From Henriciella sp. AS95 (GTDB lineage: Bacteria > Pseudomonadota > Alphaproteobacteria > Caulobacterales > Hyphomonadaceae), in assembly GCF_038900055.1 (NCBI RefSeq), contig NZ_JBBMQM010000001.1:3410001-3474000 (forward strand): a stretch of DNA of 64,000 nucleotides. Reading direction: 5' to 3'. The position numbers and the translations under genes were made by a program. Below are positions 22,982-38,028 of the stretch, one piece after another (position 1 is the stretch's first letter; the number at the start of each line of letters is the position of its first letter). Under the pieces are notes generated by a model that did no database searches, was not told where the DNA came from, and saw nothing but the letters and a program-made list of their open reading frames with translations.

Positions 22982-24400
22982 CTACGGCAGGCCAACCTGT
23001 CCTTCGAGCCCCTTCATCAGCCTTTGCGGATCGAAAGCCTGCCCGGCTCTGAATACGATTTCCACCTCCCGAATTGCTGATGGGTCGGCATCAATATCGC
23101 CATCGACAAGAATCAGATCCGCCAGATAGCCAGGCGCAATCCGGCCGGTTTCCTTGTCCAGCCCGAGTGCGTGAGCACCATTGCGCGACATGATGATGAT
23201 CGTCTGCGACGTGGAAAATCCCGCCTCTCTCAGAAGCTCGAAGTTTCGCTGGTCACCGAAGCCCGGCAGCACATGACGGCCGGTATCCGGACCCGCCAGC
23301 AGACGCCCCCCGGCCTCCACGAAGCGACGCTCAAATGCCAGAAGAAGGGTCCAATAGGCTGGACTGGTCGACAGGGATGTTTCGATCTCAGCCATAGCCT
23401 CCGCCCGCGCGCGCGACGCCTCCGCAAGATGGGGCGCGAGCAGGGTGAGCGTTCGGTCATCGGCTTGCGGGCGATGAGGGAAGCGCGACTCCAGAATAGC
23501 CAGAGTCGAGGTCAGCTCGACATCATGACTGACCAGTGTCTCGATAAGGGCATCGATCTGGGGACTGTCCACATCGAGCGCCGCTTTTGCATCGAGGCTC
23601 GGCACGCACGCGCCGCGGGGCTTGTCCTCCACCATATCGCTCGCCGGATGCAGACCATGCTCCAGTCCATCGATGCCCATCTCGGCGGCCTCTGCATACG
23701 TGACCGAACAGAGATGGCCCGTGACACGCAATCCGCGCCGGTGTGCCTGCTCTATGATAGTGGCAGCAATATCGGGGTCGGTATGCCGATACAGTTTGAT
23801 TGTGTTAACACCGCGATCAGCCCATTCATCGACAAACCGACGCGCGGCGTCCGCACTGGCAGGCTTGTCCATCGGTGGATTGCCGTCAGGCCCGGTTACA
23901 TAGGGCGCTGACGCCATGATCCGTGGGCCGGGCGCGGTGCCCCGCTCGACCTGGCGGGCAAGCCTCAGCTCTCCAATCGGGTCGGCGCTGCCAGCCGTCT
24001 GGATCGTGGTCACGCCCGCAGCCAGGTAAAGACGAGCCGCAACGTCGCCCATGAAAGGCGCACCGGGCATGTGCAGGTGATTGTGCATGCCGACAAAGCC
24101 GGGGATGAGAGACTTGCCGCTTCCCTCAACGCGCTTGACGCCTTCGCCTACGATGACCGTGCCGACATCGGCGACCTCAACGATTCGCCCATCCCTGATC
24201 AGGACGTCTTGTACGGAAGGCGCAGCTTCATCACCGGAAAAGACGGTTGCCCCCGTAATCAGGAAATCATCGCCTGGCGCGGCGAGAAACACTGCAAGGG
24301 GATCGTCGGATATCTGCCGCGATGCTGCCGGCAGCGCGACTGCTAGACCGCACAAGGCGGCGAAGACGAGAGCACTCACCCGTGCGAATGGACTGATCAA
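22982..24400 (-). CDS. Exported amidohydrolase (imidazolonepropionase-like)
   Basis: 472 residues beginning at TTG 24400 or GTG 24379, with a Sec signal peptide ending near LPAASRQ. Metal and catalytic motifs of the amidohydrolase superfamily are GMHNHLHMPG (HxH), INTIKLYRHTD (Lys region), VTGHLCS and GLEHGLHP (two His), and LLAGPDTGRHVLPG (Asp). The flanking small beta domain (DFLITGATVFSGDE and APGYLADLILVDGD) is typical. Related periplasmic enzymes hydrolyse dipeptides or amides; the substrate here is unknown. Confidence 0.85.
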   Translation of the reverse strand: MISPFARVSALVFAALCGLAVALPAASRQISDDPLAVFLAAPGDDFLITGATVFSGDEAAPSVQDVLIRDGRIVEVADVGTVIVGEGVKRVEGSGKSLIPGFVGMHNHLHMPGAPFMGDVAARLYLAAGVTTIQTAGSADPIGELRLARQVERGTAPGPRIMASAPYVTGPDGNPPMDKPASADAARRFVDEWADRGVNTIKLYRHTDPDIAATIIEQAHRRGLRVTGHLCSVTYAEAAEMGIDGLEHGLHPASDMVEDKPRGACVPSLDAKAALDVDSPQIDALIETLVSHDVELTSTLAILESRFPHRPQADDRTLTLLAPHLAEASRARAEAMAEIETSLSTSPAYWTLLLAFERRFVEAGGRLLAGPDTGRHVLPGFGDQRNFELLREAGFSTSQTIIIMSRNGAHALGLDKETGRIAPGYLADLILVDGDIDADPSAIREVEIVFRAGQAFDPQRLMKGLEGQVGLP

Positions 24401-24501
24401 TACAAGGCTCCGAATACGCCGCTACAAGTGTAGCAAGCACATTTCGCGATGTTCTTCAAAGCAGTCAAGCCGCTGGTGCCGAAAGAGATGATCAGTGTAC
24501 C

Positions 24502-25332
24502 CTAAGGCCGCAGCAGCTCGTTGATCCCGGTCTTGCTACGGGTGCGCTCATCGACTGTCTTGATGATCACGGCGCAGTAGAGGCTCGGGCTCTTATTGTC
24601 GCCCGATGGCATCGTGCCCGGCACGATCACCGAATAAGCCGGCACTTCGCCCATGTGGACTTCGCCCGTCTGGCGGTCCACGATCTTGGTCGACTGGCTG
24701 AGATAGGTGCCCATGGCGAGCACTGAGCCTTCGCGCACGATCACGCCTTCGGCCACCTCGGCCCGCGCGCCGATGAAGCAATTGTCCTCAATGATGGTCG
24801 GATTGGCCTGCAGCGGCTCGAGCACGCCGCCAATGCCAGCACCGCCCGAGAGATGCACGCCCTTGCCGATCTGCGCGCACGAGCCGACCGTCGCCCAGGT
24901 ATCGACCATCGTGCCCTCATCGACATAAGCGCCAATGTTCACGAAGGACGGCATCAACACCACGCCGGACGCGATATAGGATCCGCGCCGCGCGACCGCA
25001 TTCGGCACTGCGCGCAGGCCTGATGCCTCAAAGTCGTCCGCGCTCCAGCCATCGAACTTGCTCGGCACCTTGTCCCACCAGGTAGACTCGCCCGGTCCGC
25101 CCTTGATCGGGCCATTGGCGTTCAGGCGAAACGACAGGAGCACCGCCTTCTTCAGCCACTGGTTCACCACCCAGTCGCCATCAGCGCCCTTCTCGGCCAC
25201 GCGCGCCTTGCCCGCGTCGAGCATGGCGAGCGCTTCCTCAACGGCCTCGCGCACCTCGCCCTTGGTGTCGGTCGAAACGCCGGCGCGCTCCTCCCAGGCG
25301 GTATCGACAATCTTGGCGAGCTGTGCGGTCAT
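24502..25332 (-). CDS. dapD: 2,3,4,5-tetrahydropyridine-2,6-dicarboxylate N-succinyltransferase
   Basis: 276 residues from ATG 25332 (GGAG 8 bp upstream; the open frame extends further back to 25392). DapD uses succinyl-CoA in the lysine/diaminopimelate pathway. The left-handed beta-helix hexapeptide repeats are evident ([20 protein letters not shown], then [20 protein letters not shown]), and the N-terminal helical domain and SFRLN stretch match the family. In other alphaproteobacteria dapD stands near argB and truA. No dapE or dapC lies next to it here. Confidence 0.97.
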
Positions 25333-25553
25333 CTTGGCCACTCCATACAGGTTCAGTCTGACTGGCCGTCCGTATAGGCGAGCCGCCGGCAAAGGTCATC
25401 CCCTTTAGACGTCATTCCTGTCGCACCGCCGGGGTCGCCTGGGACGAGCACAACTGACGCCTTATCCCCCTCAGGGGCTATGTCGTTTTGTCAGCTATTC
25501 GCTAGGATGCTGCATCGCCTATTGTTTCGGCTTCACACTCGGGGACTCCTGGA

Positions 25554-27317
25554 ATGGCAATTACGATACGCAAGCTCGCCGCGACGCTCTTCCTAGCGGC
25601 GATGACAGCCAGCGCACCATCCGCCAGCGCAGGTGGTCCTTCTGTCCCGTCATGGAACCCGCACGCCGAGCCCGGGCAGTGCGTCCCCATCGAACGCACG
25701 AAATCCTGTGAGCGGACCGATCTTGTCTATCTCGTCAACAAGGCCGACGGATCCGGCACGACGAGAGTCGCGCTGATCGAAGACAGGTCGCTTTCCTTCC
25801 GGAAGATTTCGAAGATGGCCAAGGCGATGGGCGAACCGTTTGATCGGAAAATCAATTCCTATGCAAAAGAGGTGCTCGAGGAGTCGCTCTGGCGCGGCGC
25901 ACGCCTACCGGATGAAGGCAGGACAATCGAGCCGCCGCTCTACCTTTATGTCTACCCGGTGTCCGACAAGGTCGCGCTCATCGAGCCCTATGACAAGGTA
26001 CCAACCCCCGAAACGGACCTGCTCTATTTCGTCGCCCTCGACGGCAAAATCGCTGAACCTGTGCGTCCGGGCATCCGCAGGGACCGGCTGGTCTATATCG
26101 GTGGCCGCCACAGGAACATGCCGGCCCATGTCTTCGAACTTGTCAGTTCCGATAAGGAGCGCGGCACCGCCACATTTCGCCAGTATGATGGTTATGGCAA
26201 CGTCCGCGCCGTCTTTGATAATATCGTCAGGCACAAGCCCAAAGATAATTTCGATTCCTGGGAGCTCGATTTTGTCATCTACGGTCCACAGCATTTCGTC
26301 ACGTCAGCCCTGCATCCAGTAACCGGTGAGCCTGCATCTTTATGGTTTAACGCTGATGGTTCGGTCATGGGCTACCGGCCGCCAGCCGTGCCCAGAAGTG
26401 TGATCCAGATCGGAACAAAGGACCGCTCATGGACCGACCTTTTCTCTCTTGTCGGCGAGTTGCCGGAGTTTACAGGCCTGAAGGATAACCGCCTCTATCA
26501 CCCACTTGATGTAAACGGTAAATTGTGGCCGGCACCTGACAATTTTGTCGGCATGGCGCGCATGTTCGATTGGCCTCATAGGAACAGTGCCGGCGCCCCG
26601 ACGGGCAACAACAATTATCGCGGCTGGCTGCTCGTCTATAACCTCGGGACCGGCTATGGCTACAAGATCGCCGACCGCGACAGGCCGAAGTCCGATTATC
26701 CAGCAATGGTCAGTGCGCCATATGTGCTCAATGCAGAAAAAGACCTCAAGATGCTGGCCGGGTTCCAAACTGCTCCTATCGACGGCTCCAACGGCTATAA
26801 GCGGACGGTCATCAGGCTCTTCGATCGTTATGAAGCCGATGGCGTGACGCCGGCAGCTGGTGCCGTCCCGGCAAGCTGGCGCGAGGTCAATCGCAACTCG
26901 GACAATGGACTTAGGGTCACGGCCACCACAGAGTTGCGCGAAGAGAGCTACGCCACCGCCAGCGAGGCCTTCGCCGCGATGCGGCAGAGGGAATTGGAAC
27001 ACAAGGCAGAGTATGCGCGCCGTCAGGAAATTTACCGCCAGGAAAGGCTGGCCTGGCAGGCAGAGCGCGAAGCGCAAGAGGCCCGCTACCAGGCCGAGCA
27101 GCAGGCCCGCCTTGAACGCGAAGCTGCACAGGAAGCCGAATGGGCCCGCAAACGCGCCCAGTACCGCCCCAAGACCGGCGCCGAGGAATATGCCGAGCGC
27201 ATGGAAGAGTACAAACGCCAGCAAGGTCTTTCATCCGGCGTGCAGGCCCCCTTCAAGCGCCAGACCACCGAATGCTACGATCAGGGCGACGGCACGGAGA
27301 AGTGCTTCACCCGTTAG
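25554..27317 (+). CDS. Large secreted protein of unknown function with a C-terminal coiled coil
   Basis: 587 residues. A Sec signal peptide (about 1-26, ending SASAG) precedes a beta-rich body (about 50-450) with tyrosine and tryptophan-rich strands such as LYLYVYPVSDKVALIEPYD and LVYNLGTGYGYKI. Residues about 470-560 form a highly charged coiled coil (repeats of RQEIYRQERLAWQAER type), and the end has two Cys. The family is not recognised. A strong hairpin follows, so it is a single transcription unit. Confidence 0.75.
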   Translation: MAITIRKLAATLFLAAMTASAPSASAGGPSVPSWNPHAEPGQCVPIERTKSCERTDLVYLVNKADGSGTTRVALIEDRSLSFRKISKMAKAMGEPFDRKINSYAKEVLEESLWRGARLPDEGRTIEPPLYLYVYPVSDKVALIEPYDKVPTPETDLLYFVALDGKIAEPVRPGIRRDRLVYIGGRHRNMPAHVFELVSSDKERGTATFRQYDGYGNVRAVFDNIVRHKPKDNFDSWELDFVIYGPQHFVTSALHPVTGEPASLWFNADGSVMGYRPPAVPRSVIQIGTKDRSWTDLFSLVGELPEFTGLKDNRLYHPLDVNGKLWPAPDNFVGMARMFDWPHRNSAGAPTGNNNYRGWLLVYNLGTGYGYKIADRDRPKSDYPAMVSAPYVLNAEKDLKMLAGFQTAPIDGSNGYKRTVIRLFDRYEADGVTPAAGAVPASWREVNRNSDNGLRVTATTELREESYATASEAFAAMRQRELEHKAEYARRQEIYRQERLAWQAEREAQEARYQAEQQARLEREAAQEAEWARKRAQYRPKTGAEEYAERMEEYKRQQGLSSGVQAPFKRQTTECYDQGDGTEKCFTR

Positions 27318-27714
27318 CAAGGCGACGGGGCGCACTCGAGCCGTATCCGGGAATAGTTTCGCAGGCTCGCAACAGACGACAAGAATAACCCGCACCGAAC
27401 GGCGCGGGTTATTCACTTTCAGCGGGCGACCGCCCGCCCAGGGCAGCAAGACTGGCACTCTTTTTCAGGTGCGAAAGTCTCATGAAAGTATCCCTTTTTC
27501 CTTTGTCCTTTCAGAGCAAGACCAGCTCCTCTTGAGGCGATCAGAAAAGATCTGATCCGACGCAGCTATGAAGGCGGTAGAAAACCGGCAGCGGCTCGAT
27601 TGATTTTTATTGGGCCAGTGAAGTTGACACGCAAAACGCGAAAATTTTTCGGGAATCGACTTTTCTTTTCGTGGATCGCTCTACCTCAACGACAAACCAC
27701 GGACTGGAGTCAGA
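27318..27714. other. 397-bp non-coding gap
   Basis: Holds the terminator at 27383-27414 and presumably the promoter of the ECF sigma gene. A perfect TTGACA at 27624-27629 is present, but I cannot place a convincing -10. I see no gene. Confidence 0.5.
27383..27414 (+). terminator. Hairpin terminator
   Basis: An 11-bp perfect stem (gaataacccgc/gcgggttattc) with a 10-nt loop, 66 bp after the stop of the large secreted protein gene. Only a short T-rich stretch follows. Confidence 0.65.
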
Positions 27715-28296
27715 ATGACGAAGCTCGAATTTGACGCCCTCAACGAGCGGCTTTGTGAAGCGCTGGGAAAATGCGCAGCCGGAGACAAAACAGCTTTCAA
27801 GACAGTGTATGAGCTGACCGCTCCGAAACTACTCAACCTGTTGACCCATCAATTGAAAGACCCGGAAGCGGCGCGCGACGTGATGCAGAAAGCGTTCGTC
27901 TCGATATGGTCGAATGCCGGGAAATTTGACCCGTCAAAGGGCAAGGCATTCACCTGGATGCTGGTCATCATGCGGAATCGCGGCCTCGACTACCTCAGGA
28001 AACGCGCCCGCGCGCCGGAAACTGAGGAGATCGAGCACTCCATCCCCGATACCTCACATCAGCCCGAACAGGCCGCCGAAATCAGCGCAGCCGGCCGCCT
28101 GGTCTCCCGCCATCTGGCAAAACTCCCCTCGCATGTGGCCCAGTCGATTTCCCTGAATGTCGTGTACGGCATGTCGAGCACGGAAATCGGTACCGCTCTC
28201 GATGTGTCACCGAATACGGTAAAGGGATGGATCAGGCGCGGGCTGAAGCAGATGCGAGCCGACATTCCCGGCAATTCGGTCTCCGCCTTCATCTGA
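27715..28296 (+). CDS. ECF sigma factor (RpoE/SigK-like)
   Basis: 193 residues. Region 2 (about 25-95: FKTVYELTAPKLLNLLTHQL, RDVMQKAFVSIWSNAGKFD, AFTWMLVIMRNRGLDYLRK) and region 4 (about 130-180: MSSTEIGTALDVSPNTVKGWIRRGLKQMR) are both intact. It lies convergent to an RskA-like anti-sigma gene that ends 17 bp away, an arrangement that suggests the pair works together although they are not co-transcribed. Confidence 0.9.
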   Translation: MTKLEFDALNERLCEALGKCAAGDKTAFKTVYELTAPKLLNLLTHQLKDPEAARDVMQKAFVSIWSNAGKFDPSKGKAFTWMLVIMRNRGLDYLRKRARAPETEEIEHSIPDTSHQPEQAAEISAAGRLVSRHLAKLPSHVAQSISLNVVYGMSSTEIGTALDVSPNTVKGWIRRGLKQMRADIPGNSVSAFI

Positions 28297-28313
28297 ACGC
28301 ACAGGAGCGTTGC

Positions 28314-29063
28314 TCAGATCGGCCCGACCTTGCCGGTATAGACGATCGGTCCCGTCGGCCCGGCATCCGGGGATCCACCTTCCGGCTCAAGGCTGATTGC
28401 CAGCGTATCCGACCCGGCAAGCAGGTCGGTCGAGATCTGCAGATCGATCACCCCGTCCTCTGACAGCTCCTGCAGCAGGCCCAGCGATTGCGGGCCGTCC
28501 AGCCCATCGCGCAGCAGCCACAATTCCCACACGCCATCTTCAGGCAGCCCCGTATTGGCGAGCCGGCCGGTGACATGGTTTGACGTGCCATCATACAGCA
28601 GGACGACCACGCTGGGCGCCTGCTCGGTCGCCATCAGGGCAAGAAGTTCTTCTCGCGTGCCATCCATCGTTTCGGTCTGTGCGCCGGGAACAGCATGCAG
28701 GCCCGCCGCGATCACGGCGATCAATAGCGAGGCAGCCGTTGCATACTGCCAGGGTCTTTGGGGATGCGACGGTTGCGGGCGGGCCGGACGCCGCGCCGCG
28801 TTCGGCGTCGGTGCAGCAATTGCGGCGGGTGCGTCATCGCCGCCAATCTCAGCCATGATATCATCCAGCAGGCCGGCTGGCGGTTCGATCTCTGGGGCGT
28901 CTTCGCTCAGCGGCGCGAGGAAGCCCTCCATGTCGGACACAAGGTCCCGGAAGGATTCATCTGTACGGTACAGCTGTTCGAACTCCCGGACCTGCGCGTC
29001 CGTGGCATGGCCGAGGAGCCATGCGCTGGCGAGCTCTTCGCGGCGGGTGGACTCATCACTCAT
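28314..29063 (-). CDS. RskA-like membrane anti-sigma factor
   Basis: 249 residues from ATG 29063, which overlaps the end of the upstream sigma-like gene by 8 bp. The cytosolic N terminus (EELASAWLLGHATDAQVREFEQ) is the typical sigma-binding part; one membrane span (about 112-130, ATAASLLIAVIAAGLHAV) follows a Pro-rich linker; the periplasmic C-terminal domain contains VWELWLLRDG, a signature of the RskA/anti-sigma-K domain. It would hold an ECF factor at the membrane until an envelope signal. Which of the two sigma genes it controls is open. Confidence 0.88.
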   Translation of the reverse strand: MSDESTRREELASAWLLGHATDAQVREFEQLYRTDESFRDLVSDMEGFLAPLSEDAPEIEPPAGLLDDIMAEIGGDDAPAAIAAPTPNAARRPARPQPSHPQRPWQYATAASLLIAVIAAGLHAVPGAQTETMDGTREELLALMATEQAPSVVVLLYDGTSNHVTGRLANTGLPEDGVWELWLLRDGLDGPQSLGLLQELSEDGVIDLQISTDLLAGSDTLAISLEPEGGSPDAGPTGPIVYTGKVGPI

Positions 29064-29571
29064 TTGCGTGCCCTCCCTTACCACTTGCCAGCGCCGCCAG
29101 TCTGGACCGGACCTCGGTAGCGCTCATACCAAACGTCTCAGCAAGGACGTTCGGATCGCATGCTTCTAGATAAGCGGCCTTGAGCAAAGCGAAATCTTGC
29201 TCATGCAACTCACCCGGCCTTGGACGGCTCGCAGACCTGATCTTTCCATCCTTGAGCGGAGACTCCAACTGGACCGAATGTCCTTCATTCCTAAGACTGA
29301 AACGAATATTCAGCCCGTTCTGGTGCGCGATCGCTGCAATCTGCTGAAATTCGAGGCCGTTCTGCCCGGAAAGCTGCGTGCGGTGCTCCCAGACATGCAG
29401 GTAGGTCTGCTTCAGGGCGCGCGCCGCCAGTGCATGGTCACCGAGCAAGGCAAATAGCTTTCCGAACAGGCGGTCAGAGGTCAAATGATAGAGCTGTTGC
29501 AAGGCGGCGGCATCTCCCGCGGCGATGCCGTCCATAACGTCCTGCAATTTGGCGCGGTCAATCTGCGTCAT
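29056..29571 (-). CDS. Degenerate ECF sigma-like protein
   Basis: 171 residues. Region 2 similarity is visible (ALQQLYHLTSDRLFGKLFAL, RALKQTYLHVWEHRTQLSG), but the aspartate/glutamate-rich core of region 2.2 (the DVxQE motif) reads ARALKQT and the 2.3/2.4 melting residues are poor. Region 4 is weak (LAETFGMSATEVRSRLAAL). It forms an operon with the RskA-like gene. It may be a diverged sigma factor or a modulator that competes for the anti-sigma factor; this is inference. Confidence 0.68.
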   Translation of the reverse strand: MTQIDRAKLQDVMDGIAAGDAAALQQLYHLTSDRLFGKLFALLGDHALAARALKQTYLHVWEHRTQLSGQNGLEFQQIAAIAHQNGLNIRFSLRNEGHSVQLESPLKDGKIRSASRPRPGELHEQDFALLKAAYLEACDPNVLAETFGMSATEVRSRLAALASGKGGHANE

Positions 29572-29698
29572 CGTCCTGATCGAATTGCCTGCTTAGCCTT
29601 GCCCGTCGCATCAATGCCTGAAGACAAATAGCGTTCAAGTCAAACGGCATTTTCTCTCGCCGAGATTGAAACCGCCAAACGTCGCCAGTCGCTATGCC

Positions 29699-31096
29699 TC
29701 AGGCCGCTCTTACGGGCGTCACCTGGCGCGGCAGTTCCAGCACGGCGCCGCCAATCGACACGGCCAGCTGCGGCGCAACCGTCGTGAAGTCCGTATTGCG
29801 GGACTGGAACAGCTCCGGTGACATCACTTCAAAGGTCCACTCATACGGAATGCCGCGGATCATGTCGGCGACCATGGGCAGCGTGCTACCACCGCCCGTC
29901 GGCAGGATTTCGACCACTTGCTGGCCGCCGCCGGACGCGGCGATATTGCGGGCCCAGTCCATGGCTGGCGTCAGCGCTTCATAGAACTTCTCTGCCAGCC
30001 GGCGCGAGAAGCCCCTCACATGCTGGTCGGACAGGAACTCTTCCAGGCTGAGCTCGATCAGCTGATCGCCCGCCTCGGTCACCACTTTGCCTTGCGCGAA
30101 CAGCGTCTCTTTCAGCTCGCGCTGCTGCGAGCGGATCATCGAGATCGCGCCGCGCGCCGCCGGGTCGTCCGGCAACAGGCCCGCCTTGTACATCAGGATG
30201 CGGCGCAGCTGCATGTCGAGATAATCGCCCGCCTCGCGCAGCACCGTGGCGCTTCCGTCGATCTCTGCAACCACATTGCGACCGGACACACCGGTGGTAA
30301 ACGCCGCAAAGTCCGACGTCCCGCCGCCAATGTCCGCCACGACCACCACGCGCCGACGCGTCGGGCGGATGGAGGCAGCGGCAACCGCCGTGGCTTCCGG
30401 CACGGTCGCCGTGCCCTGTTCGGAAATCTCGAAAATCTGCTCGTCCGGAAACTCGGACGTATCGGGGATCGCAGCGAAGGCCGCCTTCACCGCATCATGC
30501 TCCAGCCCGTCCTCAGAGATCAGCGCCTCGCCGAAATGGTCAAGCAGGATGAAAGCGTGGCGCACCAGTTCCCGCAGCATCGTCTCGCCCCATGCGGCGC
30601 GATCGGCTTTCCAGGCGGGCCGGGTCACCCGGAATAGCGGCGGCCAGGACAGGTTCTGCGTCCCCGCAGCCTGCTCGGCACGCCGCAGCAGATAGGCCAG
30701 ATACAGCGTGATCAGCTGCTTGGCGGTATACTGCCCCGTCGGGTCGATCTCAGCCGGCAGCCTGTCCTCGAGCGCGTCCAGCGCATGTGTCGACAGATAC
30801 TGTTTGGGCGAGGCGAACGGCACGCGCCCGCGCCGTTCATTACGCCGCGCCGACGTCTCAGCCTTGCGGCCAAACCGGACGGCGTTTTCATCAACGAACA
30901 GAAGCGACGGCAGCAAATAGGGATTGTGCGACTGGCCTTCTCCGATGGCGAGCGGGTGGATGCACTGCTCGTCCAGATCGACCAGCTTCTCGGAATCGAC
31001 AATCGACACTTTCGAATAGGCCGTGCCGAAATCGATACAGCCGATGCGCGTCACATCCCGCGCCGCCAATAGTCTCTTGATCCAGCTCGCAGCCAT
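29699..31096 (-). CDS. Hsp70-like (actin/HSP70-fold) ATPase
   Basis: 465 residues from ATG 31096 (GAGGG upstream). The nucleotide-binding motifs of the ASKHA fold are all present: phosphate-1 CIDFGTAYSKVSIVD (22-25 DFGT), phosphate-2 VADIGGGTSDFAAF (about 255-262), and the adenosine motif PTGGGSTLPMVADM (about 399-412). It is shorter than DnaK and lacks the peptide-binding C-terminal domain, since the chain ends about 60 residues after the adenosine motif. The gene follows a winged-helix/GrpE-like gene by 16 bp in one operon. It is probably a specialised chaperone or signalling ATPase with an unknown client. Confidence 0.85.
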   Translation of the reverse strand: MAASWIKRLLAARDVTRIGCIDFGTAYSKVSIVDSEKLVDLDEQCIHPLAIGEGQSHNPYLLPSLLFVDENAVRFGRKAETSARRNERRGRVPFASPKQYLSTHALDALEDRLPAEIDPTGQYTAKQLITLYLAYLLRRAEQAAGTQNLSWPPLFRVTRPAWKADRAAWGETMLRELVRHAFILLDHFGEALISEDGLEHDAVKAAFAAIPDTSEFPDEQIFEISEQGTATVPEATAVAAASIRPTRRRVVVVADIGGGTSDFAAFTTGVSGRNVVAEIDGSATVLREAGDYLDMQLRRILMYKAGLLPDDPAARGAISMIRSQQRELKETLFAQGKVVTEAGDQLIELSLEEFLSDQHVRGFSRRLAEKFYEALTPAMDWARNIAASGGGQQVVEILPTGGGSTLPMVADMIRGIPYEWTFEVMSPELFQSRNTDFTTVAPQLAVSIGGAVLELPRQVTPVRAA

Positions 31097-31112
31097 TCGT
31101 CCCTCTACCTGC

Positions 31113-32069
31113 CTAGTCCAGTGGTGTCGCCAAACCCCGAAGGATGACGAGTTCGTCGCCATCCCTTACGCGGATTATGGGCTGTTTCATGACGATGGCA
31201 TCTTCGCCGTCATCCATGTCTTCGGTCGCTTCGAAATAGACCGGATCGAAGGCCACTGTCTCATTACGTTTGTGTAGGGCTTCAAGGCCCCGCTTGCTCG
31301 CCGCCATGCGCAGATTCTGGAACACATTCTCCGCCGCCAGCGACACCTGTTTCAGCGCTGCTTCGCCCTGCCCGTCCAGCGTCTTCTCCAGCGCGCCAAA
31401 CCGCCCATCGAAAGCCGGCATCGCCTGCAGCGCCATGGCCAGCATCGTCTCGCTCTCGCTCCAGGCCGCCTCGGCCATCAGGTCTTTTTCAGCGGTTTCC
31501 GGTTTGGGTTTGGCAGGCTTCACAGCCGTGTCGCTCGCGGGCGCTCCACCCTTCCCGGTAAAGAACGCTTTCAGCGCGCTGCCATCGGCGCCAACGCGCT
31601 GTCGTACCCCTGCCAGAAGCGCATTCATCGCGCCGAGCTTCATCGACACCTGCGGCACGTCCATCGGAAAGTCGCTCGCAAGGAACGCCCACCCCTCATC
31701 GGTCAGCTCATGCGTGAACGGCGCCTTGGTCGTCTTCACCAGACCAAGACCGGACAGGCGCTTTCGGTGCCAGCCCGTCATCCGGATCCCATAGCGCGCG
31801 CCAAGATCGGCCGCCTCTTTCAAAGGGCCGCCTTCCGCCATGAGCGCGACCAGCACGCTGCGTTCCACGGGTGTCAGATCTGCCAAGGCCTGTTCCTCAT
31901 CCACAAACGCGCCGCGCTGCCAGGAGCGCCAGATACGCAGACTGCCTTCTTCGGATTCGAGCCGCAACAGCAAGGGTGTTTCATCTGTGGAAGCCTGTGC
32001 ACGCAGTCTATCCCCCGGCCTCGGCCACCTCCGCCCGCATGCTTGACGGCCAGCCAGCGCAGACGTCAC
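31113..32069 (-). CDS. Winged-helix protein with a GrpE-like C-terminal domain
   Basis: Up to 318 residues. A winged helix occupies about 62-130 (LTPVERSVLVALMAEGGPL, MTGWHRKRLSGLGLV, HELTDEGWAFLAS). After a Lys/Pro/Ala linker and helices (about 195-260), the C terminus (about 262-318) resembles the beta wing of GrpE: VAFDPVYFEA for the GrpE FDPxxHEA, then VMKQPIIRVRDGDELVILRG for the GxxxxGRxLRPA strand pair. With the adjacent Hsp70-like ATPase this suggests a nucleotide-exchange partner. The 5' end is unsure: GTG 32069 has no SD and is 8 bp from the opposite gene. The GrpE similarity is my own alignment by eye. Confidence 0.6.
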   Translation of the reverse strand: MTSALAGRQACGRRWPRPGDRLRAQASTDETPLLLRLESEEGSLRIWRSWQRGAFVDEEQALADLTPVERSVLVALMAEGGPLKEAADLGARYGIRMTGWHRKRLSGLGLVKTTKAPFTHELTDEGWAFLASDFPMDVPQVSMKLGAMNALLAGVRQRVGADGSALKAFFTGKGGAPASDTAVKPAKPKPETAEKDLMAEAAWSESETMLAMALQAMPAFDGRFGALEKTLDGQGEAALKQVSLAAENVFQNLRMAASKRGLEALHKRNETVAFDPVYFEATEDMDDGEDAIVMKQPIIRVRDGDELVILRGLATPLD

Positions 32070-32077
32070 ATCGGTGA

Positions 32078-33130
32078 ATGTTCGACGCGTCCATCAAGCA
32101 GATCGTGAAAGCCCATTTTCCGGGCGAGACTCTCGACAAGGCAGTGCGCATGCAGGGCGGCGTCTCAGCCGATGTATACAAGCTACAGCTGTCAGCAGAG
32201 GGCGCACCGGCACGAGACCTCGTCCTGCGCATTCACGGCCAGACCCATGGCGGACACCCGGCCGGCCTGGAATTCCAGCTTCTGCAATTTGCGTATGACG
32301 CCGGGCTGCCCGTCCAGACACCGGTACTGGTCGACACAAGCTGCACGCATCTGCCCGCACCCTACCTCATCGTCAGCTATGTCGACGGCACAACAGAGAT
32401 CAGCGAAGGCAATCTGGATGAGACCCTCGGCGTGATGGCGCGGGTCATGTTTGCCTTGCACGCCACATCCACCAAAGCCCTACCCGACCTACCGGAGCGG
32501 ACAGACCCCATCCCCGACCTGATCGGCTTTCTGCCTTCGACGGAAGAGAACCAGGCCTTTCGCGCCTGGCTCGAAGCGCTGAAATCTGCCCCCTATGCTG
32601 GCGCGCTCGTGCCGCTGCACGGCGATTTCTGGCCCGGCAATCTTGTCTGGCAGGGCGACTGCTTGGCCGCCATTCTGGACTGGGAAGACGCCGCCATCGG
32701 CGACCCGCTCTCGGATGTTGCCTGCACCTGCCTCGAACTGCGCTACCTTTTCGGCGGCGCGGTCATGCAGCGGTTTGCGGACGCCTATCGCGCACACGCG
32801 CCAATAGACCCCGAACGCCTCACCCTCTGGCTCGCCTATGTGTCTGCCGCCGCGCTGCGCTATATGGGTGACTGGCGACTCGCGCCTGACCGCGAAGCCC
32901 ACATGAGAAAAGAAGCCCTCGCGACCCTCAAGGAGGCCCGGACGGCCCTCGGCACGCAGAGCGGGATGACGCTAACCGTCCACCTGGATGGAAATCAGAT
33001 AGGCAAGGACGGCGTCGGTGCCGATGGGTCCGAAATCGAAATCGGGCATATCGGGATGGCCAACATGGATGTGTTCACGGAAATCATCGGCCAGCGCTTC
33101 CGGGTCATAATCAGCGAGCACGGTTCTTAG
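32078..33130 (+). CDS. Phosphotransferase family protein (aminoglycoside/choline kinase-like)
   Basis: 350 residues of the APH/ChoK kinase-like fold: glycine-rich loop region VRMQGGVSADVYKLQL, Lys/Arg strand VLRIHG, hinge YLIVSYVDG, catalytic loop PLHGDFWPGNLVW and the metal-binding Asp in AAILDWEDAAIGDP. This group often phosphorylates small alcohols or sugars; the substrate is unknown. The last ~52 residues (about 299-350) are read antisense to the 3' end of the cytochrome c gene, and family similarity appears to end near residue 290, so this tail may be a recent loss of the original stop codon. Confidence 0.85.
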   Translation: MFDASIKQIVKAHFPGETLDKAVRMQGGVSADVYKLQLSAEGAPARDLVLRIHGQTHGGHPAGLEFQLLQFAYDAGLPVQTPVLVDTSCTHLPAPYLIVSYVDGTTEISEGNLDETLGVMARVMFALHATSTKALPDLPERTDPIPDLIGFLPSTEENQAFRAWLEALKSAPYAGALVPLHGDFWPGNLVWQGDCLAAILDWEDAAIGDPLSDVACTCLELRYLFGGAVMQRFADAYRAHAPIDPERLTLWLAYVSAAALRYMGDWRLAPDREAHMRKEALATLKEARTALGTQSGMTLTVHLDGNQIGKDGVGADGSEIEIGHIGMANMDVFTEIIGQRFRVIISEHGS

Positions 33131-33400
33131 CGGCGGGGCATCGGTCCGCGGGCTTTCGTCGTCCGCGCCGATGGCATGACAGGACGTGCATTGCACCTCG
33201 ACGATGTCGCGTCCGTTCGCGATAAGCGCCGCATCGCCTTCGGCCGCTTCGTTCAAATCGTCCGGAGCGGAAATTTCCGGCGCTGACATGTCCTCAGGTA
33301 CAGTGTCCTGACCACTGCAAGCCGTGACGCCCGCCACGGCGAGGCCAGCCAGCAGCCCGATACCCACGTGTTTTGCGGTCCATCTGCTTATCTGCCTCAT
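32972..33400 (-). CDS. Lipoprotein c-type cytochrome
   Basis: 142 residues from ATG 33400, with AAGGAGG 7 bp upstream. A lipobox ends at C28 (AVAGVTAC). The haem site is CTSCH (71-75) and the likely distal ligand is M118 in HPDMPDF. A small periplasmic electron carrier anchored to a membrane by lipid. Its 3' end overlaps the convergent phosphotransferase gene by 159 bp. Confidence 0.88.
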   Translation of the reverse strand: MRQISRWTAKHVGIGLLAGLAVAGVTACSGQDTVPEDMSAPEISAPDDLNEAAEGDAALIANGRDIVEVQCTSCHAIGADDESPRTDAPPLRTVLADYDPEALADDFREHIHVGHPDMPDFDFGPIGTDAVLAYLISIQVDG

Positions 33401-33463
33401 GCCAATCCTCCTTCGGGCCAGACTCCCTTTATGACGGAGAGACCGCGTGCCGCGCAACCGCCT

Positions 33464-34213
33464 CTAGCCCTGCCCGGCCGCCACGTCTTGTTCCGGGCCA
33501 AGCGCCTTCAGGACGCCTTGCAGGAAGCCCGTCAGGTCGCTCGTCAGATAATCGACATGCGGATGCGCCGCATCGTCGGCGCCGGCCGGGCGGGCCTCGA
33601 CCGGTTCATGACTCCAGTCCTTGTCGGAGCCAACCAGAACCGTCGTAAACCCCATCGCATGCGCCGGGGCGAGATTGCGCTCCATATCCTCAAAGAAGAC
33701 AGACCGCTGCGGGTCGACATCATGCGCCTTGCAGAACGCGTCATAGGCCGCCTGCGACGGTTTGGGATGATAGCCAGCGTCCTCGATCCCGAACATCTCG
33801 TCGAAATGGTCGAACAGCTCCATGTGCCGGGTCACGCGCTCGGCATGCCCGCGAGAGCCGTTTGTATACACCAGCTTGCGCCCCGGCAGTGCCGCGATCG
33901 CCTCGCGCAGGTTCGGCATCGGCGGAATGACTGAAAGATCGATTTCGTGGACATGCGCCAGGAACTCCGCCGGGTCCATGCCGTGCATCGTCATCATGCC
34001 CTTCAGCGTCGTGCCGTGCTTGGCATAATACTGCTTCTGCAGGGCTCTGGCTTCAGCCCGCTCCATGCGAAGGAATCGCGCAACGAAATCCGTCATGCGC
34101 TGGTCAATCTGGGCGAAGAGATCGCATTCTGCCGGGTAGAGCGTGTTGTCGAGGTCAAACACCCAGATATCGCGCCCCTCGATCCGGCTCATGTCGAGAT
34201 CGGGCAGGATCAA
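33464..34213 (-). CDS. Pyrimidine 5'-nucleotidase (HAD-IA family)
   Basis: 249 residues. The HAD motif 1 is WVFDLDNTLYP, motif 2 LVYTNGS, motif 3 KPS in HPKPSQAAYD and motif 4 SVFFEDMERNLAPAHAMG. FDLDNTLYP with this spacing is characteristic of the pyrimidine 5'-nucleotidase group that lies near argB and dapD in alphaproteobacteria. It starts with TTG 34213, overlapping the stop of the upstream gene (TTGA); ATG 34192 is an alternative. Confidence 0.9.
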   Translation of the reverse strand: MILPDLDMSRIEGRDIWVFDLDNTLYPAECDLFAQIDQRMTDFVARFLRMERAEARALQKQYYAKHGTTLKGMMTMHGMDPAEFLAHVHEIDLSVIPPMPNLREAIAALPGRKLVYTNGSRGHAERVTRHMELFDHFDEMFGIEDAGYHPKPSQAAYDAFCKAHDVDPQRSVFFEDMERNLAPAHAMGFTTVLVGSDKDWSHEPVEARPAGADDAAHPHVDYLTSDLTGFLQGVLKALGPEQDVAAGQG

Positions 34214-35259
34214 GAGTCGGCCTCGGCGAAGTCACGCTCGAAGAATTCGAACATCAGGCGGCGATTTTCCGCCGGCGGCGTCGCCTTGAACAGGCCGGTG
34301 CGATAGGCCGCCGCTTCGCAATCCTTGCGGCCAAGGATCGCAAAACGAACCCGCGCCACGCAGAACGGATCAGTCGCATTCTTCAGCGTCCGCAGTTTTC
34401 CGCCCTCTTCCATCTCTGCAAAGACAAAATGCTCCGCCGTCAGCAATGGCTCATCGATCACCCGCGCACAGCCACCCGACTCCAGCATCCACCAGCCCCG
34501 GCTTTCCCAGCCTTCGCCACGCCGCCGCGCAATGGCCGACCAGATGCGGTTGCGTGTGCGGTTACACAGCGTCAGCCCGATATTGCGGCCCCGTTCCTGC
34601 GCGATCTGCTCCAGCACATCGATGAGATCATCATCGGACGTCTCGGCCGGCAGATTGTTCTGCGACAGGAATTCGCCAATCGCGGTGCGCGTCTTGCGGC
34701 CGATATCGCCATCGATGTTTCCGTTGAACACGCCAGCATCCGCCAGCAGCCGCTGCACGCCAGCCGCTGCTGATTTCTTGGCGTCATAATCCTCGGTTTC
34801 GGTGAAGCTCGTGCTCCAGCTCGACTTGTTCTCGACCAGAACCGGCCGGAAGTCGCGCGGCTCAAGCCCCATGGCCGAACAGTCCTGCGGGCTCTCGACA
34901 GAGAAGCTGCCGGACGAGTCCACGCAAAGCGGGACATCCCCGCCCCAGACCTTGCGGCCGCCGCGATGCGCGGTCGATGAGCGCCCGAAAAGATAGTGCA
35001 CGCCGGGGCGCAGCTCACCGGCCAGCGCCAGTTCACACGCGCCGGGCCGCAGCCGCTTCCAGCCATCGACGACAACGCCCTGGCCTTCATACCGCGCGAC
35101 GGCGGCCTCGATCACATAGGAGGTCCGGTTGCACAGCGTCCAGCCCTTCTCGCGCCCCTGCGCATCGGCGCTGCCAGCGCCAAAACCGGCCAGCCCGGCA
35201 ACAAGCCAGAGGCCAAGACCTGCGATAACGGATTTAGAGAACAATCGTACCTGCACCAT
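34210..35259 (-). CDS. Exported DUF1036 duplicate with an internal peptidoglycan-binding-like domain
   Basis: 349 residues from ATG 35259, overlapping the argB stop by 26 bp. After a signal peptide (ending SADAQG) two DUF1036 units are seen, starting [20 protein letters not shown] and [20 protein letters not shown]. Between them lies a PG_binding_1-like unit: [20 protein letters not shown] then [15 protein letters not shown]. So one unit is followed by a cell-wall-binding repeat and a second unit. The function is unknown; it is in the argB-nucleotidase operon. Confidence 0.82.
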
Positions 35260-36133
35260 GTTCAGTAAATAGCTCCATGAGCAGGGCATGTTTCGCCCGG
35301 CCGTCCAAGATGACAGCCCCTCCAACGCCATTCTTGACCGCTCCGGCGGCCGTTTCAAGCTTCGGAATCATTCCGCCTGAAACTGTGCCGTCGGCGATGA
35401 GGGACGCGACCGCGTCCGCTTTGATCTCGCGCATCAATTCACCGGACTTGTCCTTCACGCCCACCACATCGGTCAGCAGCAACAGGCGGCTCGCGCCCAG
35501 CGCCTCGGCAATCGCGCCCGCCGCCGTGTCCGCATTGACGTTGTAGCGCTTGCCCTCGCCGTCGAATCCGACCGGCGCAATGACAGGGATGAAGTCATGA
35601 TCATAGTCGGTCAGCAAATTCAGCACCGACACATCAATCGCTTCCGGCTCGCCGACATAACCAAGATCGATCACCTGCTCGACATGGCTGTCCGGGTCCT
35701 TGCTCGTGCGCGTGGCCCGGCGCACGCGCATCAGGTCCGCGTCCGATCCAGACAGGCCAACCGCCTTGCCGCCCGCCTTGTTGATGGCGCGCACAATCGA
35801 CTTGTTGATCGGCCCGGAGAGGACCATTTCGACCACTTCCATGGTCGCATCATCGGTGACACGCAGGCCATCGCGAAACTCCGACTGGATGCCAAGGCGC
35901 TCCAGCAATTTCGCTATCTGCGGCCCCCCGCCATGCACGACGACGGGGTTCACCCCCATATGCTTCAGCAGCACAAGATCGCGCGCAAACGCTTCGGCCA
36001 GCGCCTCATCCACCATGGCATGGCCACCATATTTGATGACCACGGTCTTGTTGTCATAGCGCTGGATGTAAGGCAGCGCCTCGGAAAGCGTGGCCGCGGT
36101 AAACTGGCCAGGATTCGGTGTCGTTTCACTCAT
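35234..36133 (-). CDS. argB: Acetylglutamate kinase
   Basis: 299 residues. ArgB phosphorylates N-acetylglutamate in arginine synthesis. The amino-acid kinase fold is clear: [10 protein letters not shown] at the start (phosphate Lys), [18 protein letters not shown], the Asp/Asn-rich FIPVIAPVG and [18 protein letters not shown], then LLLTDVVGV. First gene of a minus-strand operon with the DUF1036 and nucleotidase genes. It is often near engB in alphaproteobacteria; here 11.9 kb separate them. Confidence 0.97.
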
Positions 36134-36218
36134 GGAGCTGGCGTGTAGCGGAGTTTTGTGGCCGGGTTAAGCCCACAGCGTTATTGAACGACCGATCTCG
36201 CAGCTAAAGCAGCAAAAG

Positions 36219-36247
36219 GACGGGAGCGACCACCTGCCGCTCCCGTC
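36219..36247 (-). terminator. Rho-independent terminator
   Basis: A perfect 10-bp stem (gacgggagcg/cgctcccgtc) with a 9-nt loop. On the minus strand it is followed by CTTTT, ending the small secreted-protein gene that stops at 36260. Confidence 0.78.
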
Positions 36248-36259
36248 GAAGAGGGTAAG

Positions 36260-36529
36260 TTAGAACGCGTGTTTATCGGGACAATACATTCGGGCACAGC
36301 CTACGGGAGGGTACCCATTAATGAGACATTCTTCATATGCCATGGGCTGACAGTGCCTCGCCACCACCGGTGCAGCGAATGACTGATTTGTCGGCTGACT
36401 TTCAACATCCAGATATTGCGCCAGAACATTTGGTGCCGGGTTGTCGGCCAATGCTGCAGATTCGCCTGAGAATGCTGCCCCTATCCCTGCGGTCAGCGCG
36501 ACCGTCAGAACGGCTAGTTTTGTGATCAT
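36260..36529 (-). CDS. Small secreted cysteine-containing protein
   Basis: 89 residues from ATG 36529 (AAAAAGGA upstream). The signal peptide spans about 1-29 (MITKLAVLTVALTAGIGAAF, then cleavage near ALAD). The mature part of about 60 residues has four Cys near the end (HCQP, ECLI, GCARMYC), enough for two disulphides. The DNA is more AT-rich than average. Function unknown. Confidence 0.7.
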   Translation of the reverse strand: MITKLAVLTVALTAGIGAAFSGESAALADNPAPNVLAQYLDVESQPTNQSFAAPVVARHCQPMAYEECLINGYPPVGCARMYCPDKHAF

Positions 36530-36751
36530 TTGAATGTCCTTTTTCCTGACACCAACAAGTTTGTTGGCCGGAACACCGTATGACAAAATCGGACAAAATC
36601 TATACTTTAGTTTTATATTTTTTGGTAATGCGGCCCTATTTTCAACCAAAATAATAATTTTTTGTCGTGTTCAAGAAATTTGAAAACGCTCTTTCCAAGC
36701 CCTCCGCCTGGTGCAACGATCCATGCCGTCATAAAGCTGGGAAGGGATGCC

Positions 36752-37249
36752 ATGACACACACCAGATCGATCCGCCTCGCCTTGCTCACCGCGACCCTCA
36801 CGCTGACTGCCGCCTGCTCCACCACTGCGCCGCCCGCCATCGACGAAACCGCCGAAGCTGCCGCGATTGACCAGGTCCGCGCCAACTTCACGGCCGCCAT
36901 GGCCGCGCAGGATTTCGCCGCCCTCGGCGCGCTCAGCCATCCGGCGTTTGAGCAGGTCATGCCCGGCGGCCCGGCGCACCTTGAGATGTTTGCCGCCGCC
37001 ACAGACGGCCCCTTCCCGCCCGGCTACAGCCTCGACATCACACCGAAAGAGCTGGTCATCATCGATGAAGACTGGGCCTATGAATACGGCACCACAATCG
37101 CCTCATACCTGCCGGAAGGCGCAGACGTCCGCGTGGAGATTCCGAACACCTACCTCATGATCCTGAAAAAGCATGAGGGCGCGTGGAAGCCCTATCGCGA
37201 AGTCGCGAGCAGCCTCGCCCCGCCCGGCGGATTTCCGGCGGCAGACTGA
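36752..37249 (+). CDS. Lipoprotein with an NTF2/SnoaL-like domain
   Basis: 165 residues from ATG 36752 (AAGGGA upstream; the frame is open further back to 36662). Lipobox LTAAC gives C22. The body (about 35-150) matches the NTF2/SnoaL-like cone fold: IDQVRANFTAAMAAQDFAAL, LSHPAFEQVMPGG, then strands DWAYEYGTTIASYLP and NTYLMILKKHEGAWKPYRE. Periplasmic ligand-binding or scaffold role is likely; no substrate can be named. Confidence 0.78.
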   Translation: MTHTRSIRLALLTATLTLTAACSTTAPPAIDETAEAAAIDQVRANFTAAMAAQDFAALGALSHPAFEQVMPGGPAHLEMFAAATDGPFPPGYSLDITPKELVIIDEDWAYEYGTTIASYLPEGADVRVEIPNTYLMILKKHEGAWKPYREVASSLAPPGGFPAAD

Positions 37250-37281
37250 TCCCTGCCACCGCCGGATCCGGACTGCGCCAA

Positions 37282-37872
37282 TCAGGCGGCCACAAGCCCT
37301 TCCGCCTGCATCGCCTGCTTCACCGACGGCCGCGCCGCGATCTTCTCATGATACGCCTTCAGCTTCGGCCAGCTATCGAGCGGCAGCTTGACCACGCTGG
37401 TCCAGTTCAGGATGACGAAGCCATAGGCGTCGGCCACCGTGAAATCGTCCCCGGTCAGGAAGGCCTTGTCACCGAGCCAGGCTTCGAGCTGGCCCAGCTT
37501 GGACTTCAGCTTCTCCGTCTCGGCCTCGCCGGCATTGCCGCCAAAGTACGGCGCGAACGCCTTGTGCAGCTCGGTGCCGAGGAAGGATAGCACCTCAATC
37601 ACGCGCGCCCGTTCAAGGCCGGAGGCTGGCAGCAGGCTGTCATGGCCTTCGCCGAGATAGGTCAGGATGGCGATATTCTCGGTCAGCACCTCGCCGCTAT
37701 CGAGCTCCAGCGCCGGCACATAGCCGCGCGGATTGATCTTGCTGTAATCCGCCCCGCTTTCCGTCTTGCCGTTCTTTTTGTCGACTTTTTCAAGCGTCAC
37801 AGGCTTTCCAAGTTCGTTGATGACGATGTGCGAGGACATCGAGCAGGCACCGGGCAAATAATAAAGTTTCAT
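37282..37872 (-). CDS. Glutathione S-transferase, beta class-like
   Basis: 196 residues from ATG 37872, with GGAAGG upstream. The thioredoxin-fold N-terminal domain begins MKLYYLPGACSMSSHIV, whose Cys (C10) is the residue used by bacterial beta-class GSTs, and YVPALELDSGEVLTENIAIL holds the cis-Pro and glutathione-binding motif. The all-helical C-terminal domain contains FTVADAYGFVILNW (N-capping box). Detoxification or reduction in the cytosol; the natural substrate is unknown. Confidence 0.92.
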   Translation of the reverse strand: MKLYYLPGACSMSSHIVINELGKPVTLEKVDKKNGKTESGADYSKINPRGYVPALELDSGEVLTENIAILTYLGEGHDSLLPASGLERARVIEVLSFLGTELHKAFAPYFGGNAGEAETEKLKSKLGQLEAWLGDKAFLTGDDFTVADAYGFVILNWTSVVKLPLDSWPKLKAYHEKIAARPSVKQAMQAEGLVAA

Positions 37873-38028
37873 CGGGAGGGTCCTTCCAGCTTTTTCATGA
37901 GCCGATGACATGATGCCGCCCATGCGCGGCCACAAGACCGGGCCGAAAAGTCTGACCTCGTCAGCACATCAGAAAAAACCATATCGGGTCTGACGCGTTT
38001 GTTTTCGACACTTGATATGGAGCCCCAC

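Follow-up and report, generated by a model that had tools for sequence, protein, structure and literature searches.

A short Hsp70-type ATPase encoded beside a winged-helix protein with a GrpE-like C-terminal domain in Henriciella

The gene pair, its ATPase and the predicted winged-helix module

The window, a 64,000-nucleotide stretch of the Henriciella sp. AS95 genome, contains two neighboring open reading frames on its minus strand. The downstream gene (29699-31096, minus strand, start ATG at 31096) encodes a 465-residue ATPase beginning MAASWIKRL, and the upstream gene (31113-31886, minus strand) encodes its presumed partner. The 16 bp that the initial annotation gave as the spacing of the two frames are present at 31097-31112. 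The next minus-strand ORF after the ATPase reads as sigma-factor-like; when translations were read by eye, two sigma-factor-like genes and an anti-sigma-like gene were found to adjoin the pair at 27715-29571. Comparison of the window with the Henriciella pelagia copy gave a dN of 0.112 and a dS of 0.712 for the partner and a dN of 0.068 and a dS of 0.753 for the ATPase, indicative of purifying selection on both genes.

Searches with the single ATPase sequence gave E 0.19 against Pfam HSP70, below cut-off, and E 2.9e-5 against NCBIfam HscA, far below cut-off. The PADLOC model PDC-M61B matched it with an E of 6.4e-65, which assigns the ATPase to the B component of that PADLOC candidate. A profile built from nine ATPase relatives matched 127 distinct PDB sequences at E <= 0.01 (best E 6.8e-12), and all 60 listed of these 127 were named Hsp70, Hsc70, BiP or DnaK. 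The GGG adenosine motif and the residues that we take to be the equivalents of Hsc70 D10, K71, E175, D199 and T204 were identical in all 87 ATPase relatives, while other motif positions vary, G258 being replaced by A in 78 of the 87 and R326 being retained as R in 74. The ATPase ends 62 residues past GGG403, the last nucleotide motif, approximately where an Hsp70 nucleotide-binding domain (NBD) would stop, and therefore has no room for a C-terminal peptide-binding domain. These results agree with the initial description of a short ASKHA ATPase that carries the nucleotide motifs and lacks the peptide-binding domain. Judged by its sequence, the protein is an Hsp70 NBD with conserved catalytic residues and no peptide-binding domain. 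The AlphaFold model of the ATPase was poor (pLDDT 34).

The partner had been described as a 318-residue protein, a length that corresponds to a GTG start at 32069 and that now appears unlikely. In an alignment of the window with three homologues the start codons (TTG, GTG, TTG and TTG) share one column that follows an AGG box; for the TTG at 31886 in the window, the preceding sequence is GAGGA. The H. pelagia copy (L042) carries an in-frame TAG two codons before the aligned start, so the first 60 residues of the 318-residue version are impossible in that genome. Locus L043 offers a possible alternative start as well, an in-frame ATG that precedes the aligned column by a few codons. The aligned start column and the L042 stop codon favor the TTG, and most likely the partner is a protein of 257 residues that carries an N-terminal winged helix. 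Upstream DNA from four winged-helix loci, once aligned, contained no long conserved block besides the ribosome-binding site.

The predicted winged-helix module occupies 31650-31886 (minus strand), its limits being approximate. An AlphaFold model of the partner built from two sequences (mean pLDDT 48) placed residues 1-70 in a helix-helix-strand-strand arrangement of the winged-helix type, with pLDDT values of 44-81 by block, and many of the 50 Foldseek matches listed were winged-helix repressors at E 0.08 and up. The module together with its helical tail was homologous to a 217-residue protein of locus L046 (hhalign E 1.9e-10 over 105 columns). This locus, from genome G035 of the same family as the window, is one of two weak partner matches found outside the pair, the second lying in G058 (L010, E 2.1e-4). 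Genes for a 284-residue weakly DpdF-like protein (E 0.0033), the 217-residue winged-helix protein and a 1032-residue mad8-like (E 2.6e-18)/HerA-like ATPase stand together at L046 278-4887, which is possibly a defence operon. Because the winged-helix homologue sits between the DpdF-like and mad8/HerA-like genes there, the partner looks like a module of defence-type operons joined to a GrpE-like domain.

Pairing and distribution of the two genes

The wider ATPase family was assembled as 87 distinct sequences, with duplicates removed by a shared 100-residue stretch and eight fragmentary ATPase places left out. A homologous partner was encoded by the ORF upstream of 36 of these, seven being of the winged-helix form and 29 being small partners of roughly 110-190 residues. 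The remaining 51 had no partner, which means that a partner is not a general requirement of the ATPase family. The winged-helix C termini matched the small partners with an hhalign E of 1.9e-9, and by this similarity the two forms are one family of common ancestry. The winged-helix partner lay directly upstream of the ATPase in all seven loci, which include six genomes besides that of the window. Among the small partners in long loci, six of seven overlapped the ATPase by 4 bp; the exception, L137, probably has an ATPase start that was placed too far downstream. In the ATPase tree the seven winged-helix ATPases formed a single clade (100/100), and the labels winged helix, small and none required three changes against a mean of 30.8 when shuffled, with some branches being long.

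The partner profile found 40 places in 39 genomes among the 398 genomes of the order. At 39 of these places an ATPase match followed downstream, at spacings ranging from a 19 bp overlap to a gap of 98 bp; in two cases (G1034:C249 and G1026:C83) that ATPase is a fragment. The fortieth, G963:C92, was a 24-bit match with no ATPase there. Seen from the partner, the gene pairing is tight. The initial annotation had made its reading depend on the two genes being neighbors elsewhere, and neighbors they are, both in the six further winged-helix genomes and, within 100 bp, at 39 of the 40 partner places.

Within the genus the pair is patchy: of 29 genomes searched, four had it, counting that of the window. 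The ATPase was found in nine of 105 genomes of the family and 48 of 398 genomes of the order. One other family (f3) accounts for most of the latter (39 of 48), its genomes often carrying at least two to four copies, the copy numbers being lower bounds since only four candidates per genome were scored. Beyond the order no strong match came to light. Among 385 genomes of the class, PDC-M61B matched the window's genome with an E of 2.2e-64 and 43 others weakly (best E 1.6e-7), mostly over short stretches. The sole match at E <= 1e-8 among 398 genomes of the phylum was the window's own genome, and in a different class of this phylum, represented by 78 genomes, no PDC-M61B match reached E <= 1e-10. 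Plasmid and phage tblastn searches with the window ATPase, and plasmid tblastn searches with two of its relatives, returned no match; scans of viral contigs with four-row ATPase and partner alignments found no relatives. One scan of genome contigs found the H. pelagia copy alone.

GrpE likeness of the partner C terminus

The C-terminal domain of the partner (31113-31499, minus strand) contains the strings VAFDPVYFEA and VILRG, which the initial annotation had quoted as resembling the GrpE beta wing. The Pfam GrpE model gave no match, and so none above cut-off, on any partner scanned, and a PDB search with partner profiles returned two chance-level aspartokinase matches, nothing else and no GrpE. 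The domain was also compared by hhalign with a profile of 30 alphaproteobacterial GrpEs, using shuffled, reversed and unrelated-family controls. The 36 partner domains aligned collinearly with GrpE over 95 columns (probability 78.9%, E 1.6e-5 for one comparison, score 38.2), the match running from the helices through a 'GE-FDP-H' turn to the wing. Control scores were lower: 98 scored shuffles reached at most 19.5, the reversed alignment 14.1, and 13 unrelated families (of 15 built from the same loci) at most 18.0 against the 36-partner profile.

Shallower alignments gave lower scores. The seven winged-helix C termini scored 22.1 against GrpE, with one of 100 shuffles higher at 24.1, seven small partners scored 22.9 (best shuffle 20.8), and the union of these two sets scored 29.3 (best shuffle 18.9). 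The register on GrpE was the same for the winged-helix set, the small-partner set, their union and the 36-partner set. GrpE scored 15.5 against the full-length winged-helix family and 18.0 against a four-member small-partner set, as compared with 21.1 against one unrelated family, so it takes a deep domain alignment to bring the likeness out. The AlphaFold model presents the domain as a long helix (residues 175-199) followed by five strands, in the order expected, with pLDDT values of 29-47 by block. Foldseek of this poor model returned no GrpE among the 50 matches listed.

These data bear on the possibility that the GrpE likeness arose by chance or convergence, in which case the partner would be a winged-helix protein with a helical/beta tail docking on an ASKHA ATPase. 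The lack of a GrpE match in Pfam or PDB, the shuffle that outscored the seven winged-helix sequences and the low full-length score would all fit this explanation. What renders it improbable is the behavior of the score, which rises with alignment depth in a constant register from 22.1 and 22.9 to 29.3 and 38.2, while the best shuffles, at 24.1 and 20.8 for the two shallowest sets, reach 18.9 and 19.5 for the deeper ones and the unrelated families stay at or below 18.0. We therefore take the C-terminal domain to be homologous to GrpE at the level of profiles. The part of the original claim that stands is thus the one carried by the deep alignment, and a likeness recognizable by Pfam or PDB searches, or strong in shallow sets, did not emerge. 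An ordinary GrpE is encoded elsewhere in the window's genome (G000:C1:3325632-3326129).

Genomic contexts, a putative nucleotide switch and known systems

The neighborhoods of the three ATPase classes were compared using marker genes detected by tblastn at E <= 1e-6, many loci being only 2.3-4.6 kb long, so that absences there mean little; the names AAA_31 and BBP2_2 derive from Pfam on locus L120. A CpsD/BY-kinase-like AAA_31 gene lay within 4.5 kb of 28 of the 29 small-partner pairs, and a BBP2_2 outer-membrane barrel gene near 23 of them. Among the 51 partner-less ATPases, an AAA_31 gene was close by in one case and a histidine kinase gene in 21. Those near a histidine kinase (L121, L123, L129, L136 and others) often have an OmpR-like regulator as well. 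Three ATPases of the family without a partner (L056, L057 and L058) appeared on reading to lie in polysaccharide clusters, the marker test confirming L056 alone. MORN-repeat genes adjoin two partner-less ATPases, one at L125 7544-8911 whose TIR_2 match (E 1.5e-5) falls marginally short of the cut-off and one at L119 8238-9701 that reads as TIR-like and has no Pfam TIR match.

None of the seven winged-helix pairs had a polysaccharide or histidine kinase marker nearby by the same tblastn test, in which many loci span only 2.3-4.6 kb, and no target gene common to the seven loci was noticed. The H. pelagia pair lies between HAD-like and dapD-like genes (names by reading). A YjeF_N gene adjoins the pair in L043 and, by reading, in L044; an ARPP-1 gene is near the pair in L054 and, by reading, in L055; and the L118 pair stands between relaxase and phage-type integrase genes. 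Reading alone also placed Anbu peptidase-, transglutaminase-, alpha-E- and ATP-grasp-like genes near the pair at L043 2665-6584 and L044 11796-15778. A 220-residue ORF that reads as HEPN-like (Pfam HEPN E 0.14) is located upstream of the pair at L054 11653-12312, in two sister genomes.

The small-partner neighborhoods raise the possibility that the window pair has been repurposed from regulating polysaccharide assembly, the NBD and GrpE-like partner controlling, in the relatives, the tyrosine-kinase-type AAA_31 protein. The AAA_31 and BBP2_2 linkages described above are consistent with such a role, as is a published case from Myxococcus xanthus, where the Hsp70 homologue StkA is reported to act as a negative regulator of exopolysaccharide (PMC4319316). 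However, with polysaccharide markers near none of the seven winged-helix loci, this explanation fits the relatives and not the window, for which we consider it highly unlikely.

The main rival explanation is an anti-phage defence pair of the PDC-M61 type, in which the winged helix would sense invading DNA and the ATPase would switch the response. PDC stands for phage defence candidate (PMC11514479), and our literature search found no paper naming PDC-M61. The strong PDC-M61B match of the window ATPase favors this explanation, and two PDC-M61A models match some partner C termini: PDLC04727 that of L043 (E 4e-4), with matches in two of six winged-helix members, and PDLC04730 that of the partner domain in L120 (E 0.0013). 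Of the 482 and 487 positions that make up these models, the partner matches cover approximately the last 70 only. The L118 copy between relaxase and integrase genes, the homology of the winged-helix module to a protein encoded beside a HerA/mad8-like ATPase, and the patchy occurrence in the genus (four of 29 genomes) are likewise in keeping with defence. Nevertheless, the partners of the window, L118, L131 and L134 had no PADLOC A-model match, no defence genes were noticed on reading the ORFs at 24000-38000, and the absence of PDC-M61 from the papers found leaves the candidate itself undescribed. PADLOC also applies the PDC-M61B label to ATPases of polysaccharide clusters and to those linked to histidine kinases, so the label is not specific. 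A genome search with PDLC04730 gave no match in five genomes and none in the control genomes either, so that an absence is not shown by this result. Overall, we regard the defence explanation as rather unlikely.

Since the two A models weakly match some partner C termini, PDC-M61 itself may be a GrpE-like/NBD pair. Filing the window pair as PDC-M61 was considered and rejected, given a window partner with no A-model match and a candidate that no paper found names.

The established role of Hsp70 and GrpE is in a protein-folding machine. For the pair described here classical folding is unlikely, because the ATPase has no peptide-binding domain, and the gene pair suggests a chaperone-type on/off switch used outside protein folding. 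We think it probable, with modest confidence, that the pair is a dedicated nucleotide switch in which an NBD-only ATPase and a diverged GrpE are coupled to the DNA binding or assembly of the winged helix. From the sequences we infer a complex of ATPase and partner, an exchange activity, DNA binding by the winged helix and a regulated target, and, as the initial annotation had it, an action on transcription or DNA. The ATPase would hydrolyse ATP slowly, and the GrpE-like domain would dock on or wedge into it and reset it from ADP to ATP. Through this nucleotide cycle the winged helix would change its state on DNA, with effects on its DNA binding or assembly, most likely in transcription control. 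The small-partner form would use the same cycle for polysaccharide assembly, perhaps through contact with the AAA_31 protein.

A broader proposal, which we offer tentatively as possible and short of probable, is that fusion joined a GrpE-type exchange factor to a DNA-binding winged helix, that the chaperone-free Hsp70 NBD serves as a timer or switch for a DNA-bound regulator, and that a wider GrpE-like/NBD-only module, of which the pair represents one branch, acts elsewhere in polysaccharide assembly, making Hsp70-GrpE a general signalling switch. A recurring pair that retains ATPase and exchange factor and has lost the peptide-binding domain would mean that the nucleotide cycle alone is reusable as a switch, attached here to a winged helix and to polysaccharide genes in the relatives, and the unexplained PADLOC candidate PDC-M61 would gain a testable meaning.

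The initial annotation had known of no named system of this kind. A literature search of titles and abstract starts likewise found neither a GrpE-like/winged-helix fusion nor this gene pair; the statement needs amending in that PADLOC's undescribed candidate PDC-M61 holds this ATPase. PDC-M61 shares the ATPase family as its B component and has A models weakly matching some partner C termini, but these models, at 482 and 487 positions, differ from the window partner, which they do not match. CnuD of the CoCoNuT systems resembles the present ATPase as an Hsp70-like module outside protein folding in defence-type operons, whereas it possesses a peptide-binding part, is expected by its authors to have very low ATP hydrolysis, and is described in a main text from which GrpE is absent (PMC11090510). 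StkA is similar as an Hsp70-like regulator tied to exopolysaccharide, a link that the small-partner relatives may share, but it is a 540-residue DnaK homologue whose next genes are SCP2-like and PhaE-like, not GrpE-like (PMC4319316). According to a GrpE review, all Hsp70s characterized so far have one topology, with the N-terminal nucleotide-binding domain first (PMC12987570). A further comparison is with DnaK-GrpE itself, with which the pair shares an Hsp70 NBD of conserved catalytic residues and a partner with GrpE-type profile similarity, and from which it differs in that the peptide-binding domain is missing, the partner is either fused to a winged helix or small, and the ordinary GrpE is encoded elsewhere.
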